The notes under the pieces are model-generated. The model did no database searches. It was not told the DNA's origin and saw nothing but the letters and a program-made list of their open reading frames with translations. Both the position numbers and the translations under genes were made by a program. Positions 25,617 to 30,308 of a stretch of 37,951 nt of DNA are shown piece after piece. Source of the stretch: a virus; the IMG/VR virus record IMGVR_UViG_3300022745_000996, positions 1-37,951 of that record; one strand, given 5' to 3'. Position 1 is the stretch's first letter. Every line of letters starts with the position of its first letter.

Positions 25617-25811
25617 TCAGGCCAAGGTCTTGGTAGGGTCTGGCTTGAGGCCCAGCTTCACGGCAATGACGTGTGCGTTCCCACGATGGCCTTTGTCAAA
25701 GCCATTGATGACGCGCAGTACTTGCTGTGGCCGATAGCCGTGGTCACGTGCCCATTGGGTGAAGGTTTCACCACGGGCACGGAACTGCGACTTGATTTGT
25801 TCAGGGGTCAT
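25617..25811 (-). CDS. Ner/Cro-like DNA-binding protein
   Basis: A 64-residue protein with a helix-turn-helix (FTQWARDHGYRPQQVLRVIN, about residues 17-36) and a KGHRGNAHVIAVKLGLKP tail. It is the first gene of the early operon, divergent from the repressor, which is the place of ner in Mu. Ner turns down early and repressor transcription. ATG 25811 was chosen because AAAGGAG lies just upstream; earlier ATGs (25826, 25871) give longer forms but the 25871 one lies inside the operator. Function by position and fold. Confidence 0.8.
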   Translation of the reverse strand: MTPEQIKSQFRARGETFTQWARDHGYRPQQVLRVINGFDKGHRGNAHVIAVKLGLKPDPTKTLA

Positions 25812-25848
25812 GACGCTCCTTTGCATGTCAAAACGTTGTGGTGTGTTG

Positions 25849-25877
25849 TTGGCATGTATTTTGGTATTCATTTGAAT
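25849..25877 (+). promoter_or_regulatory. Candidate repressor promoter
   Basis: TTGGCA (25849-25854), a 17-base spacer and TTGAAT (25872-25877) form a plausible sigma-70 promoter pointing to the repressor. The -10 and part of the spacer lie in operator O1. The match is moderate, with four of six bases at -10. Confidence 0.45.
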
Positions 25878-25886
25878 ACCTGTCAA
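25858..25886 (-). promoter_or_regulatory. Early promoter Pe with operator in the spacer
   Basis: On the minus strand a perfect -35 TTGACA (25881-25886) is followed by a 17-base spacer and -10 CAAAAT (25858-25863), pointing to the Ner-like gene 47 bases downstream. The spacer is filled by the 18-base palindrome O1, so a bound repressor would block the promoter. Confidence 0.7.
25863..25880. promoter_or_regulatory. Operator O1, perfect 18-base palindrome
   Basis: GGTATTCA-TT-TGAATACC is a perfect inverted repeat with a two-base centre, placed in the Pe spacer and over the candidate repressor -10. It is the best candidate binding site for the repressor, the Ner-like protein, or both. Confidence 0.75.
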
Positions 25887-25896
25887 CGGATTTGGA

Positions 25897-25914
25897 GATA
25901 TTTTTTTGAATATC
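25897..25914. promoter_or_regulatory. Operator O2, related palindrome over the repressor start
   Basis: GATATT-N6-AATATC shares 14 of 18 positions with O1 and has the same length. It lies 34 bases from O1, centre to centre, and covers the start codon of the repressor and part of its leader, suggesting autoregulation. Confidence 0.55.
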
Positions 25915-26283
25915 GCTGCACGACTTCGTGAGGAGCGTGAAAAGCTCGGTCAAAGCCAGGAGCAGTTCGGACTGATAGGGGGCGTGAAAAAGCTCGCCCA
26001 GATGAACTACGAAAAGGGTGACCGGAGCCCAGATGCGAACTACCTCGCAGCCATTGCGGCTGCGGGCGCAGACGTGCGCTACATCCTCACGGGCCAGCGC
26101 GATGGGCCCGCACCCGTGGTGCTGAGTGCAGAGGAACAAACCATGGTGGCTTACATGCGCGATGCCAGTCCCGCTTTGCGCAAGGCCGCGCTGGGGGTGC
26201 TGCTGTCAGGCAGCAGTGGCGGGGGCAACACCAACATCGTGAGCCGCAGCCTGTTTTCAGGGGTATTCAACCGGGGCAAGTAG
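25906..26283 (+). CDS. XRE-family repressor
   Basis: A 125-residue repressor with an N-terminal XRE helix-turn-helix (ARLREEREKLGQSQEQFG to GADVRYILTG, about 5-63). The C-terminal half holds a helical segment (LSAEEQTMVAYMRDAS) but no LexA-type peptidase, so RecA-driven self-cleavage is not expected. The start is TTG 25906, with GGAG eight bases upstream and no better in-frame ATG. A rare TTG start, with operator O2 on top of it, suggests low and self-controlled expression. It is divergent from the Ner-like gene, in the position of Mu c. Confidence 0.85.
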   Translation: MNIAARLREEREKLGQSQEQFGLIGGVKKLAQMNYEKGDRSPDANYLAAIAAAGADVRYILTGQRDGPAPVVLSAEEQTMVAYMRDASPALRKAALGVLLSGSSGGGNTNIVSRSLFSGVFNRGK

Positions 26284-26323: not shown

Positions 26324-26842
26324 ATGCAGTCAGAAGGCGAACAACAACAAGAGGCTCAAAGCCCACCAAACATCACCATCAACACCACCAGCGTGGACAG
26401 GTCGCTGCTGTGCATGGCCGTCGGTCAAATGAACGTCATCAGGCCTCTCAGCGCGTCAGAAGAGCTGGCCGATCGTGTGCCAGACGCATTCCATCCACAA
26501 ATTGATTGGCTCAAAAAGCAGGGCCATGCCAGTGCCCACGCCTTGCTGCAGGCCTGGAAACATCAAGGACTGGTGGTGCGCGACGGGCGCCTCTCCAGGT
26601 CAAAAATCATGTGGATGGAGGTGATGTACGCATTGCTGTCTGGTCTGCCAATGCTGTTCTTTTTCTTTGCATCCGCCTGGCTTGCGCATGACACGAAGGT
26701 GTTCGTTGACTGGGCGATGCTGATGGGGTTGGTGGTTGCCAGCGCGGTTTCGCTGGTGGGCATCGCGCACTTTCACATCTGGCCACACATCATTGGCGCA
26801 AGGGCGGTTCGCGCCTTGAGTCAATGGGAGCAATCCAGATGA
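26324..26842 (+). CDS. Two-TM membrane protein of the cargo cassette
   Basis: A 172-residue protein. Residues 1-90 are polar and cytoplasmic (PPNITINTTSVDRSLLCMA, then HASAHALLQAWKHQGLVVRD). Two membrane segments follow, around 100-119 (VMYALLSGLPMLFFFFASAW) and 128-150 (AMLMGLVVASAVSLVGIAHF). AGGGAGG precedes ATG 26324 at good spacing. No known phage structural or lysis family fits. It is followed by a coupled gene and sits directly after the repressor, where prophages often carry genes expressed in the lysogen. Confidence 0.65.
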   Translation: MQSEGEQQQEAQSPPNITINTTSVDRSLLCMAVGQMNVIRPLSASEELADRVPDAFHPQIDWLKKQGHASAHALLQAWKHQGLVVRDGRLSRSKIMWMEVMYALLSGLPMLFFFFASAWLAHDTKVFVDWAMLMGLVVASAVSLVGIAHFHIWPHIIGARAVRALSQWEQSR

Positions 26843-27570
26843 TCAATTTCTTGCTGATCGTCTGTGCTTTGGCCTCTGTTGTCTGGGTGGTCTACAAGGT
26901 GAAGAGCAACGATCAGAAGCCTGATAAACCGCTCGTACAAAAGGATGATGAAGTGCTTCCTGATGGGATCAGCCAGTACAAGTCACAACCACAGGTTCTC
27001 GTGGACGGCGTGCAAATCCGCGCGAAGGACGGCACATCAGTAGTGTTGCCACTGCAAGTTACGTCCACTTTGGTCGTTACCACAGATGAGGTTTTTGCCG
27101 ACCTGAACAGGCAGGCCACCCAGGCTCGCAAAGAGGGCGATACAGACCGAGCGGTTGAATTGCTGCAGCAAGCCAAGCAGCGCCAGGGTGATGCATATGA
27201 AGACACGCGCCTGGCGCTGTATCTGCAGCATGCAGGCCGTCTTGATGAGTCGATGGCGGAATTCGACTGGCTATTGAACAAAGTGGATTCACAAGTTGAA
27301 AACGTGTTTGGCCACTGCGCACCCATCATGCGCACAAAGATAAAGGCACATCAACGGTCAAAAATTCATGACAAAGCAAGGCTAGCCGCCAAGCGTGCCG
27401 GTGTCAGTGACTTGAGCAGCCACCACAGCAAGTTGGCTGAAAAGTTTGCCCACGAATGGGAGTCACTGAAGCCCGCAGCCGAACAAGCGGAACGCGAGCG
27501 ACGTGAACATGCCAATCGAAAGGCGATTGCATCTCTTCAGCATCAGAAAGCTACCGGTGACGTGATGTGA
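26839..27570 (+). CDS. Membrane-anchored TPR-like protein of the cargo cassette
   Basis: A 243-residue protein with an N-terminal membrane anchor (FLLIVCALASVVWVVYKV) and a body with TPR-like helices at about 86-150 (NRQATQARKEGDTDRAVELL, then ALYLQHAGRLDESMAEFDWL). The C-terminal end is charged. ATG 26839 has GGGAG eight bases upstream and overlaps the previous gene by four bases (ATGA), so both are translated together. Partner binding through the repeats is likely. No family recognised. Confidence 0.65.
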   Translation: MINFLLIVCALASVVWVVYKVKSNDQKPDKPLVQKDDEVLPDGISQYKSQPQVLVDGVQIRAKDGTSVVLPLQVTSTLVVTTDEVFADLNRQATQARKEGDTDRAVELLQQAKQRQGDAYEDTRLALYLQHAGRLDESMAEFDWLLNKVDSQVENVFGHCAPIMRTKIKAHQRSKIHDKARLAAKRAGVSDLSSHHSKLAEKFAHEWESLKPAAEQAERERREHANRKAIASLQHQKATGDVM

Positions 27571-27618
27571 TGCAGGGTCAAGAACCGCAAGCGTTAGAAC
27601 AATTTTCAAGGAGGAACA

Positions 27619-28602
27619 ATGTCACTGCCACTTCGTAAACGCACGGTGCATTTCTATGAAATACACGTGCATGCCTACTCCAAGTCAGGCATCCAGAATC
27701 CGTCCTGTGCCCCACTACCTGTATTGCTGAATTGCTTTGCCGGACTGGCTACTGCCAGCAAGCTACCTCAGACAGTGCGCAAATCGAGTCAGGTACACAC
27801 AGTGCTATCGGATTGGAATTACGACCAAGCCAGTAACAGTTATCAATTGCTGATCAGCAAGGCCAATGCGGCCTTGTCCGACGTGGCATTGCGCGATCTC
27901 AAGACGGCCAAGTTACGCAAGGCTGGCAAAACAAAGGCGGAAGGCATTGAGGTGTCCGCTCACATCCTCTTGCGGCCCAATGCAAATGGAAAGACAGCCA
28001 CGGTGCTGCTGACCATGGGGGCTGGTGTGGCATCTAAGGACGTTGAGGTGTTACTGCGTGGCTTGTCCCGCATGGCATCCAAGCTGCCAAAAAACAAAAC
28101 CCTGTATTGGTTTGATGATCCATCGGGCGCAAAAGACGACAAAGGTAAGCCCAAACAATACGAGGTGCATTACGGATTTGCCGCCTACAGCCACATGGGT
28201 CAAACGATGACAGAGGCGTTGCGAACCGGTGAGTTCACTTCCATGGAGCTGGTGGCACCGGTGCGCAGCCAGTTTGACGCTGGAGGCAACTTGCAAATCA
28301 CAGAACGCACCTTAACCGTACATGCTGATTTGCCCAAAACCGTGACTGCGGCTGGCGTGCGCAATGCGATTCGTCACTTCCAGAAGCAGCCCGATGCCAG
28401 TATTTACAGCAAGCTGCGCATCCATTACAAGACAGTGTCTGGCAAGACGACCAGCGCCACTTTGGAACTCAACCACCTGGATGCTGCGTTTACGCTGAAG
28501 GAGCAAATCGACTTCACCATGGATGTAGAGGCACAGCAGGAGTCGCTTTGCCCGGCCATCGTCGATGGCATGAAAACACTGTTGCAGTCGGTGCCCACTT
28601 AA
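27619..28602 (+). CDS. Soluble protein of unknown function, cargo cassette
   Basis: A 327-residue soluble protein with AAGGAGG before ATG 27619. The N-terminus (KRTVHFYEIHVHAYSKSG) and the C-terminal half are beta-rich; a helical stretch lies around 140-155 (DVEVLLRGLSRMASKL). No catalytic motif, signal peptide or named family is recognised. Base composition is visibly lower in GC than the structural genes. It is 12 bases from a four-TM membrane gene. The pairing of a soluble protein with a membrane protein recalls phage-defence or exclusion modules, but this is inference. Confidence 0.65.
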   Translation: MSLPLRKRTVHFYEIHVHAYSKSGIQNPSCAPLPVLLNCFAGLATASKLPQTVRKSSQVHTVLSDWNYDQASNSYQLLISKANAALSDVALRDLKTAKLRKAGKTKAEGIEVSAHILLRPNANGKTATVLLTMGAGVASKDVEVLLRGLSRMASKLPKNKTLYWFDDPSGAKDDKGKPKQYEVHYGFAAYSHMGQTMTEALRTGEFTSMELVAPVRSQFDAGGNLQITERTLTVHADLPKTVTAAGVRNAIRHFQKQPDASIYSKLRIHYKTVSGKTTSATLELNHLDAAFTLKEQIDFTMDVEAQQESLCPAIVDGMKTLLQSVPT

Positions 28603-28614
28603 ACTCCGACCACC

Positions 28615-29178
28615 ATGTCGGTGCTATTCAGGCCATTTTCTTTCCTGTCCATCAGCCATCACTCGGGACTACCCGCATTGGTGAACTGGGTGTTGCCGAT
28701 CGTGGCAACGGCCTCGGCATTAGCCATTCTGCAATTGGCAGGTTCAGGCGTGAACGTGTTTGGCACCCAGGGGGTGCTGGATAGGCTGCTGGCTTTCATC
28801 CAAACGTTGGCTGGGTTTTACATTGCTGCACTGGCGGCCGTGTCATCGTTCAACAGCCCTCACTTAGACCGGGAGATGCCCGCGCCAGCGCCCACCATGT
28901 ACATCATGTACAACGGTGGGCGGCAGCTGGTGACACTGACCCGTCGTCGTTTCCTGACGTTGATGTTTGCTTATCTGACATCGCTGAGCTTTTTGTTCAG
29001 TCTGTCCGCCATTGCCATTTTGGTACTGGCACCGGCATTGAAAGTGGCATGGCCTGGCGCAGTCAACACCTTGCATCTACTGGGAACTGGCTTTTTCTTG
29101 TTCGTCCTCTTTCAGATGACGTGCATAACGTTCTGGGGCTTGTTCTATCTGGGTGAACGCATGATTACCCCTGATTGA
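28615..29178 (+). CDS. Four-TM membrane protein of the cargo cassette
   Basis: A 187-residue protein with about four membrane segments: around 22-42 (LVNWVLPIVATASALAILQL), 57-79 (LLAFIQTLAGFYIAALAAVS), 114-139 (FLTLMFAYLTSLSFLFSLSA) and 152-177 (LLGTGFFLFVLFQMTC). Between segments two and three is a Pro/Tyr-rich loop (APAPTMYIMYNGGRQ). It begins 12 bases after the soluble gene. It lacks the features of the holin that follows, and a membrane effector or exclusion role is possible. Confidence 0.65.
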   Translation: MSVLFRPFSFLSISHHSGLPALVNWVLPIVATASALAILQLAGSGVNVFGTQGVLDRLLAFIQTLAGFYIAALAAVSSFNSPHLDREMPAPAPTMYIMYNGGRQLVTLTRRRFLTLMFAYLTSLSFLFSLSAIAILVLAPALKVAWPGAVNTLHLLGTGFFLFVLFQMTCITFWGLFYLGERMITPD

Positions 29179-29194
29179 TGTAGCTGCTTCACGC

Positions 29195-29212
29195 GCGTTC
29201 TAAAACGCTTTT
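29195..29212 (+). terminator. Possible terminator at the end of the cassette
   Basis: A short hairpin GCGTT-CTAA-AACGC followed by TTTT lies just after the four-TM gene. A second repeat, GAGGG-CTAAA-CCCTC, follows at once. The 74-base gap to the holin gene may therefore hold a stop for lysogen transcripts and the start of the late rightward operon. Confidence 0.4.
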
Positions 29213-29252
29213 CTGAGGGCTAAACCCTCCCCCCGGGCAAAGTGCCTGCACC

Positions 29253-29657
29253 ATGCAGACACAAGTCCCCACCTCTTTCTCCAACACCCTCACATCCCGC
29301 ACGCCACGCCTGTTCGGCTGGCTGCTGATCACCATTTGCCTGATGGCGGGCATATGGTTCATCGCCCCGCACCAGCTGCCGGTCAGCCTCTACAAACTCA
29401 GCCTGGTCACCCTGGCTGCCGTGGTGGGCTACTGGCTGGACCGCTCACTGTTCCCCTACGCCCGGCCTGATGCGCTGATGTGCTCCCACATGCTGGACGG
29501 CGATCCCGAGCCAGTGCCCACCTGGGAAATGGGCGACGAAACCGTGGGCCTCGCCCTGTCAGCAGACCGCACCGAATCACTGGTGTTTGGCCTGGCCATG
29601 CTGCGCCGCGCCATCATCGTGGGCTGCGCCATGCTGGCAATGGGCTTGGGGGCCTGA
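29253..29657 (+). CDS. Putative holin
   Basis: A 134-residue protein with two membrane segments at about 22-38 and 45-62 (LYKLSLVTLAAVVGYWLDRS), followed by LFPYARP and a third hydrophobic segment near the C-terminus. The LYKLSLVTLAAVVGYWLDR-type core is typical of holins of Mu-like phages. It starts the lysis cassette and should open the inner membrane. The transglycosylase follows four bases later. Confidence 0.8.
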   Translation: MQTQVPTSFSNTLTSRTPRLFGWLLITICLMAGIWFIAPHQLPVSLYKLSLVTLAAVVGYWLDRSLFPYARPDALMCSHMLDGDPEPVPTWEMGDETVGLALSADRTESLVFGLAMLRRAIIVGCAMLAMGLGA

Positions 29658-29660
29658 GCC

Positions 29661-30308
29661 ATGGTCATCAAAGCCACGCACTGGATTTTGGGCGCACTGG
29701 TGTTCCTGGTTTTGGGTTGGGCCATGCAGGCCGATGCCCAGACCGTCCCCGCCACTGCCCACAAATACCGTGCCGAACTGACCCGCGCCGCCCACACCCA
29801 GTGGGGGCTTGATGCACCCATTGCCGCCCTGGCTGCCCAGGTGCACCAGGAAAGCGGCTGGAACCCTGCAGCCGTCAGCGGCGTTGGTGCCCAAGGCATG
29901 GCCCAGTTCATGCCCGCCACGGCCACGTGGTGGTGCGAATTGAACGGCATGGGCAAGGACGAGTGCCAACCCACCAACCCCACCTGGGCACTGCGCGCCC
30001 TGGTGGGTTACGACAAACATCTGTTTGACCGCACGCCCCCACGCCTGAGCGACTTCGATCGCCTGTGGGTGGCGCTGCGGGCCTACAACGGCGGCCTGGG
30101 CCACTGGCTTGCGGAAAGCCGTGTGGCACAAGTTGCTACAGGCTTTGCACAGCCCAGCCGCCAACAGGTGGACGCAGCCTGCGGCAAGGCCAAGCGCCAC
30201 CCCACTCATTGCCCCGAAAACCTCCACTACCCGGCGCGCATTTTGGGTGTGCTGCAGCCGCTGTATGCGGGTTGGGGCCGGGTCTTCACACAACAGGGGC
30301 GTGTGTGA
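29661..30308 (+). CDS. Endolysin: lytic transglycosylase (SLT)
   Basis: A 215-residue transglycosylase that cleaves peptidoglycan at lysis. Residues 1-26 form a signal or signal-arrest segment (LGALVFLVLGWAMQADA-like). The catalytic Glu64 is in the ES motif QVHQESGW, followed by GAQGMAQFMPATA and the AYNGG motif (about 142-146). It overlaps the spanin gene by one base (TGATG). Confidence 0.9.
   Translation: MVIKATHWILGALVFLVLGWAMQADAQTVPATAHKYRAELTRAAHTQWGLDAPIAALAAQVHQESGWNPAAVSGVGAQGMAQFMPATATWWCELNGMGKDECQPTNPTWALRALVGYDKHLFDRTPPRLSDFDRLWVALRAYNGGLGHWLAESRVAQVATGFAQPSRQQVDAACGKAKRHPTHCPENLHYPARILGVLQPLYAGWGRVFTQQGRV

Follow-up and report, generated by a model that had tools for sequence, protein, structure and literature searches.

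What is the role of the four plus-strand genes that separate the repressor from the lysis genes in the IMG/VR virus record IMGVR_UViG_3300022745_000996 (positions 26,324 to 29,178)? The window, i.e. the whole stretch of DNA analysed here, is this record at its full length of 37,951 bases. It carries genes for a Mu-like transposase and B protein, both on the minus strand, as well as head, tape-measure, terminase and portal genes. An initial annotation, made from the sequence, had described the four genes, here called gp1 to gp4, as one cassette of unknown families and as the best candidate for an undescribed exclusion or defence system expressed in the lysogen. We consider it probable that gp3 and gp4 form a RexAB-type abortive exclusion module (PDC-M53/RexABpp), with gp3 as sensor and gp4 as pore, and that gp1 and gp2 are separate from it. 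Loci and genomes used for comparison are given by L and G numbers.

Assignment of gp3 and gp4

gp3 and gp4 were assigned with the PADLOC models. gp3 matched PDC-M53A (PDLC04696) with an E-value of 2e-40 over residues 7-323 of 327, and gp4 matched PDC-M53B (PDLC04699) with an E-value of 1.3e-51 over residues 3-186 of 187. Both subunits are matched over nearly their full length, and their genes are adjacent on the same strand, 12 nucleotides apart. gp4 also matched phrog_8257 (E 1e-31), and a weak match to PADLOC Cas2e was seen for gp3 (E 0.017). PDC-M53 itself is a computational candidate only; PDC systems are termed unpublished candidates in PMC11811056, and our literature search found no paper naming PDC-M53.

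No match above cut-off was found for any of the four proteins in Pfam or NCBIfam. For gp3 and gp4 the PADLOC matches overturn the description as unknown families, and the pair is a named candidate system of a tested kind rather than an undescribed one. The initial annotation was right that nothing here resembles phage structural, lysis or replication genes, as searches of Pfam, NCBIfam and PHROG gave no match to such families. A match to lysis or morphogenesis proteins, which would have spoken against a defence function, was absent from the family searches, and gp3-gp4 as lysis or morphogenesis proteins were dropped on this ground. For gp4, no holin-family match was found in Pfam or PHROG at E-values up to 1, and the gene that follows it is the holin.

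Relation to RexABpp of Pseudomonas putida

A system that has been studied by experiment is RexABpp of the P. putida prophage P1, where the gene order is CI-like repressor, PP_3897, PP_3898, PP_5643 and PP_5644, and where, according to deletions, exclusion of the phages tested depends on the last two genes only (PMC12894663). PP_5643 binds DNA and its fold resembles that of lambda RexA, while PP_5644, predicted to have four membrane helices, acts as the growth-suppressing effector. Overexpression of RexA led to RexB-dependent growth arrest and membrane leakage, and both genes were required (PMC12894663).

The IMG/VR contig L120 has the order S24/helix-turn-helix (HTH) repressor, HIRAN protein of 137 amino acids, and proteins of 78, 330 and 188 amino acids, followed by hicBA on the other strand. 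Its pair (L120:4985-6546) matched PDC-M53A with an E-value of 8e-157 and PDC-M53B with 2.8e-72, stronger than the matches of the window, and the best PDC-M53A model is PDLC04694 for L120 and the one named above for the window. The number of this contig is that of P. putida KT2440, and together with the gene order published for P1 this fits L120 being P1, which we take it to be. gp4 and the membrane protein of L120 are 34% identical (pairwise E 7e-31). gp3 and the RexA of L120 are 20% identical over 221 amino acids, with an E-value of 6e-7 in the pairwise comparison and 5e-5 against the 127 partner proteins described below.

Since the pair of L120 matches PDC-M53A and PDC-M53B, RexABpp and PDC-M53 seem to be a single family. 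We did not find this link in print, and the main text of PMC12894663 mentions neither PADLOC nor PDC. The two pairs are homologous in both proteins, share the PADLOC name and the four-pass membrane partner, are of nearly the same size (330/188 amino acids there, 327/187 here), and stand in the common order of repressor, two genes, rexA, rexB. They differ in the intervening genes, which encode the HIRAN protein and the 78-residue protein in L120, and a membrane protein and a TPR-like protein in the window, and in that the phage studied here is Mu-like and transposable. gp3-gp4 are probably a new example, in a Mu-like phage, of a known kind of defence.

Proposed mechanism

A defence function of gp3-gp4 is well supported, though by homology only, and to this extent the initial proposal of an exclusion or defence role in the lysogen stands; it is not extended to gp1 and gp2. 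The two genes would be active in the lysogen, where they would probably be read from the repressor side. gp3 would clamp DNA as a dimer and recognise a product of the infection, probably DNA from the replication or recombination of a superinfecting phage. DNA-bound gp3 would switch on gp4, predicted to be an oligomeric inner-membrane pore, and its opening would damage the membrane, stop growth and abort the infection. For RexABpp, a two-hybrid assay gave no binding between the two proteins, no depolarization was seen and leakage was confined to a subpopulation (PMC12894663), which leaves both the trigger step and the pore hypothetical in P. putida as well.

Recurrence of the pair

The recurrence of the pair was evaluated on 152 loci with a gp4 match, from which the copy of the window itself (L007) was left out and which include duplicates such as L001/L074 and L008/L075. 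gp4 relatives were found in six phage records, namely two tail-less Vibrio phages, Shigella phage SfII (two records), Salmonella phage F1055 and Moraxella phage Mcat23, and a gene of 327-357 amino acids precedes the gp4 relative in all five of the phage regions examined. Profile scans with gp4 gave 66 loci in bacterial genomes and, in IMG/VR, 130 confirmed loci of which 80 were used.

An open reading frame (ORF) of at least 150 amino acids ends next to the gp4 match, just upstream, in 146 of the 152 loci. Among the six loci with no such partner, the match lies less than 400 bases from the start of the stretch in L041, L066, L096 and L122; L018 and L033 have room for one. Of the 127 distinct partners, all but one (126) matched the gp3 profile at E < 1e-3; six of these 127 come from loci that seeded the profile. 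The spacing between rexA and rexB is mostly -14 to +16 nucleotides. Scans with the single gp3 sequence found nothing in genome contigs and one locus in viral contigs.

A repressor-like ORF on the same strand was detected at most 3.5 kb upstream of rexA in 34 of the 133 loci having at least 1.5 kb of upstream sequence. This is likely an undercount, as simple similarity to six seeds from these same loci was used. The genes between repressor and rexA vary among the 22 loci listed. The pair is also found outside this context. In SfII, Q and the lysis genes are on the other strand, and on a plasmid the partner matched the gp3 profile with an E-value of 8e-37, having no tblastn match to gp3 itself. 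The Vibrio phages L003 and L006, both of the tail-less Vinavirales, have a rexAB-type pair near the end of the record, and in L003 an integrase gene adjoins it.

The first two genes and alternative explanations

gp2 recurs apart from the pair, and gp1 has no convincing relative. gp2 matched phrog_38637 (E 1e-7), with TPR matches under cut-off, and its relatives were found at seven loci: L077, L080, L160-L163 and L186 (Pseudomonas phage JBD18). The repressor of the window has a match in all of these except L162, and a holin and/or endolysin match is found in five (L080, L160, L162, L163, L186). Among the 399 genomes of the family group of G001 (from which L008 comes), 4 had a gp2 match and 3 a PDC-M53B match, and none had both. 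A scan with the single gp2 sequence gave nothing in viral contigs. gp1 has no relative in viral contigs, in the 152 loci or, by tblastn, in the phage records, and it did not match any of seven proteins taken from the same stretch of other loci. Weak matches of gp1 in 4 of 399 genomes (E 2.6e-4 to 9.5e-4) were judged to be due to chance, as they lie inside open frames of 401-872 amino acids.

Two observations on gp2 are added here. Its N-terminal membrane segment and the region that follows comprise dozens of residues absent from the aligned relatives of L077 and L080, and for this reason the gp2 of the window may be a fusion. A small protein with a weak, below cut-off match to DUF4282 follows the gp2 relative in two different prophages (L077:4464-4934 and L160:5733-6194), once with rexAB and once without, which suggests that the gp2 relative and the DUF4282-like gene are a second mobile pair.

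The reading closest to the initial annotation is that all four genes are one defence system in which gp1 and the TPR-like gp2 act as adaptors or regulators of gp3-gp4. The genes are on one strand and closely spaced, gp1 and gp2 being coupled by an ATGA overlap, they share the lower GC content, and gp2 relatives adjoin rexAB in L077 and L080. Against this, DNA shared with a sister phage begins inside the cassette: by blastn, the window is 83% identical over 27596-30115 to the contig L074 (the same contig as L001), which covers gp3, gp4 and part of the lysis genes, and nothing was found over gp1 or gp2, in place of which the sister phage has DUF2513 and DUF4124. Furthermore, rexAB is absent from the other five of the seven gp2-relative loci, and among the 152 RexB-like loci a gp1 relative was found in none and a gp2 relative in two. 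In the P. putida prophage P1 the two intervening genes, which by similarity test are unrelated to gp1 and gp2, are dispensable (PMC12894663). The four-gene system was dropped on the homology boundary at 27596 and the separate recurrence of gp2, and we regard it as very improbable. Since gp1 and gp2 do not travel with the pair, recurrence as a set, proposed in the initial annotation as a check, fails for the four genes and holds for the last two. gp1 and gp2 look like separate, exchangeable accessory genes, judged to be outside the RexAB-type module and probably not required for exclusion.

Two other explanations accept the pair and differ on what it does. The RexAB-like pair of mycobacteriophage Butters is reported to be wired in reverse (PMC7542560; discussed in PMC12894663). 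Applied here, and this is the main mechanistic rival, soluble gp3 would itself act as effector against the incoming phage, and membrane-bound gp4 would hold it inactive until infection; gene layout alone cannot separate this wiring from a sensor with a membrane effector. In RexABpp, the closest relative studied by experiment, both genes are needed and the membrane protein is the growth-suppressing effector (PMC12894663), and we find the Butters-type wiring unlikely for gp3-gp4. Even less credence is given to a function apart from defence, where gp3-gp4 would tune the lysis-lysogeny decision or the lysis timing of their own phage. The place of the pair between repressor and holin would suit such a function, and in lambda, RexA is able to bias the bistable switch without the help of RexB (PMC11077077). 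The pair is, however, also found away from that context, as in SfII, beside the integrase of the Vibrio phage and on the plasmid, and the holin models are matched by the next gene and not by gp4. The sensor and pore module is our preferred reading of gp3-gp4.

Comparison with lambda RexA and RexB

Several observations weigh against the RexAB-type assignment, among them the comparisons with the lambda proteins. gp3 and gp4 gave no match to RexA and RexB of Pfam (PF15969/PF15968) or of PADLOC at E-values up to 1, while the lambda proteins were matched with E-values of 1e-97 and 9e-92 in Pfam and 9e-110 and 9e-61 in PADLOC. Profile-profile comparison with lambda-type alignments of four sequences each was not significant (E 0.039 for RexA and 0.047 for RexB), and shuffled decoys scored as high in 5 of 150 cases for RexA and 12 of 150 for RexB. 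Foldseek gave no match in the PDB at E-values up to 1e-3 for the gp3 model, the top match being Iml3 (E 3e-3), and lambda RexA was not among the 50 Foldseek matches listed. To these are added the low identity of gp3 to the RexA of L120 and the 99 of 133 loci where no repressor-like ORF was detected by the simple similarity test.

The AlphaFold2 model of gp3, built from 86 sequences, has a mean predicted local distance difference test (pLDDT) of 93 and a predicted template modelling score (pTM) of 0.81. With VIA-align, Iml3 (4it3) gave Z 7.2 and CENP-N kinetochore chains 5.5-6.5, and lambda RexA (8twq) was second by Z of the 995 chains aligned, with Z 6.9 and a root-mean-square deviation (rmsd) of 16.2; its alignment of 214 residues is the longest among the 50 matches listed. 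This Z-score also counts against the assignment, as values of this size are described by the tool as common: human phosphoglucomutase 1 (Z 6.7) and plant PR-10 proteins (Z 6.2) score similarly, so the fold by itself does not decide the matter. RdgC and IML3/CHL4 are given as structural relatives of RexA, which is argued to move between closed and open domain arrangements (PMC11077077); in our view, such a movement would explain a long alignment with high rmsd. The gp3 alignment profile had a single match among PDB sequences (E 0.51), and in BFVD gp3 matched four viral models, all of uncharacterized proteins, with E-values of 2e-11 to 4e-10. The AlphaFold2 model of gp4 is helical with long helices (pLDDT 95.8) and gave no useful solved relative; helical bundles reached Z 8.7 (PA28), which is common for bundles according to the tool.

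As the sequence comparison is not significant and the fold indecisive, we file the pair as PDC-M53/RexABpp, a pair predicted to work like RexAB, and do not claim membership of the lambda sequence family. Lambda RexA/RexB and gp3/gp4 have in common a soluble sensor and a membrane protein, with the sensor gene first, downstream of the repressor. They differ in length (279/144 amino acids in lambda), in the two extra genes after the repressor here, and in the lack of a significant match of gp3/gp4 to the RexA and RexB models. The pairs Sbash gp30/gp31, CarolAnn gp44/gp43 and Butters gp30/gp31 are likewise described as two-gene prophage exclusion systems, made up of one soluble protein and one four-pass membrane protein; they belong to actinobacterial phages, are likened here by description only, and in Butters the wiring is reversed.

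Gene layout

The features of the region are collected in Table 1. The position of the four genes between repressor and lysis genes, taken from the ORF list, the HTH repressor, and the Holin_2-3 and SLT matches, agrees with the initial annotation, as do the lower GC content and the membrane segments in three of the four genes.

Table 1. Features of the repressor-to-lysis region of the window
Feature	Position	Strand	Evidence or remark
HTH gene divergent from repressor ("Ner-like" is our own label)	25617..25886	-	phrog_925, HTH DNA binding protein, E 4e-26
HTH repressor, first gene of presumed lysogenic unit	25906..26283	+	phrog_8, E 6e-12
gp1, 172 amino acids, two C-terminal membrane segments, orphan	26324..26842	+	Shine-Dalgarno motif AGGGAGG, by eye
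gp2	26839..27570 (ORF 26824-27570, 248 amino acids)	+	243 amino acids, N-terminal membrane segment and TPR-like region
Left edge of nucleotide homology with sister contig L074, module boundary	27596		blastn
gp3, RexA-like, 327 amino acids, presumed cytosolic DNA-binding sensor (PDC-M53A)	27619..28602	+	PADLOC
gp4, RexB-like four-pass membrane protein, 187 amino acids, presumed effector (PDC-M53B)	28615..29178	+	PADLOC
Possible terminator hairpin between gp4 and holin	29195..29208	+	pattern scan only
Holin, right border of stretch	29253..29657	+	Holin_2-3, E 6e-30
SLT endolysin	29661..30308	+	Pfam SLT, E 9e-15

The GC content of gp1 to gp4 is 0.565, 0.529, 0.534 and 0.541, compared with 0.62-0.65 for the holin, endolysin, terminase, portal, capsid, tape-measure and transposase genes. 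The order of GC by codon position, with position 2 lowest and position 3 highest, is the same as in these comparison genes for gp1, gp3 and gp4; gp2 is the exception, with position 1 (0.64) above position 3 (0.58). Hydropathy in windows of 19 residues gave 2, 1, 0 and 4 membrane segments for gp1 to gp4, respectively. The start of gp2 is probably at 26839, because this ATG overlaps the stop of gp1. Good ribosome sites had been noted for all four genes. Inspected by eye, those of gp1 and gp3 are strong and that of gp2 is moderate, while none is obvious for gp4, the start of which is 12 nucleotides past the stop of gp3. The repressor also matched Pfam HTH_3 (E 8e-4), under the curated cut-off. 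Promoter and terminator patterns in the region were found at chance level.

A possible second pair

In three of the three loci with a DUF6731 gene, this gene is directly followed by one for a protein of 151-160 amino acids with hydrophobic segments (L162:6865-8200, L191:3934-5273, L192:4045-5372); DUF6731 was found in 3 of 299 genomes. The pair of L162 lies after the gp2 relative, between an HTH-like gene and the lysis genes, and in L192 a repressor-like match (61%) is about 1.1 kb upstream. For the membrane partner of DUF6731, the alignment with the gp4 family covered 104 columns (E 0.0022). DUF6731 itself was not significantly similar to the gp3 family when one sequence was used (E 0.08) and gave E 0.015 over 27 columns with three; one of 150 decoys scored as high in the latter comparison and one of 150 in that of the membrane partner. 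The likeness to the gp3 and gp4 families is suggestive only. Neither protein had a PADLOC match at E-values up to 0.1, viral contigs and phage records gave no relative for the DUF6731 protein of L162, and our literature search found no paper naming DUF6731.

DUF6731 and its membrane protein may be a second, undescribed exclusion pair. Tentatively, and with more doubt than confidence, we propose that Burkholderiales Mu-like prophages swap several exclusion pairs of sensor and membrane effector at the repressor-to-lysis stretch, PDC-M53 being one, and DUF6731 with its protein of about 155 amino acids (as in L162) another, perhaps a very distant RexAB-like branch.

Implications

By this finding, which is otherwise ordinary for the window, an anonymous-looking cassette becomes a member of the RexAB kind that can be tested, and the computational candidate PDC-M53 is tied to a system tested by experiment. 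Only five RexAB-type systems had been described according to PMC12894663 (2026). The presence of the pair in Mu-like, other tailed and tail-less phages and on a plasmid suggests a common accessory of proteobacteria in RexAB-type exclusion and not a curiosity of lambda, and the trigger of RexA could then be studied across many natural pairs.

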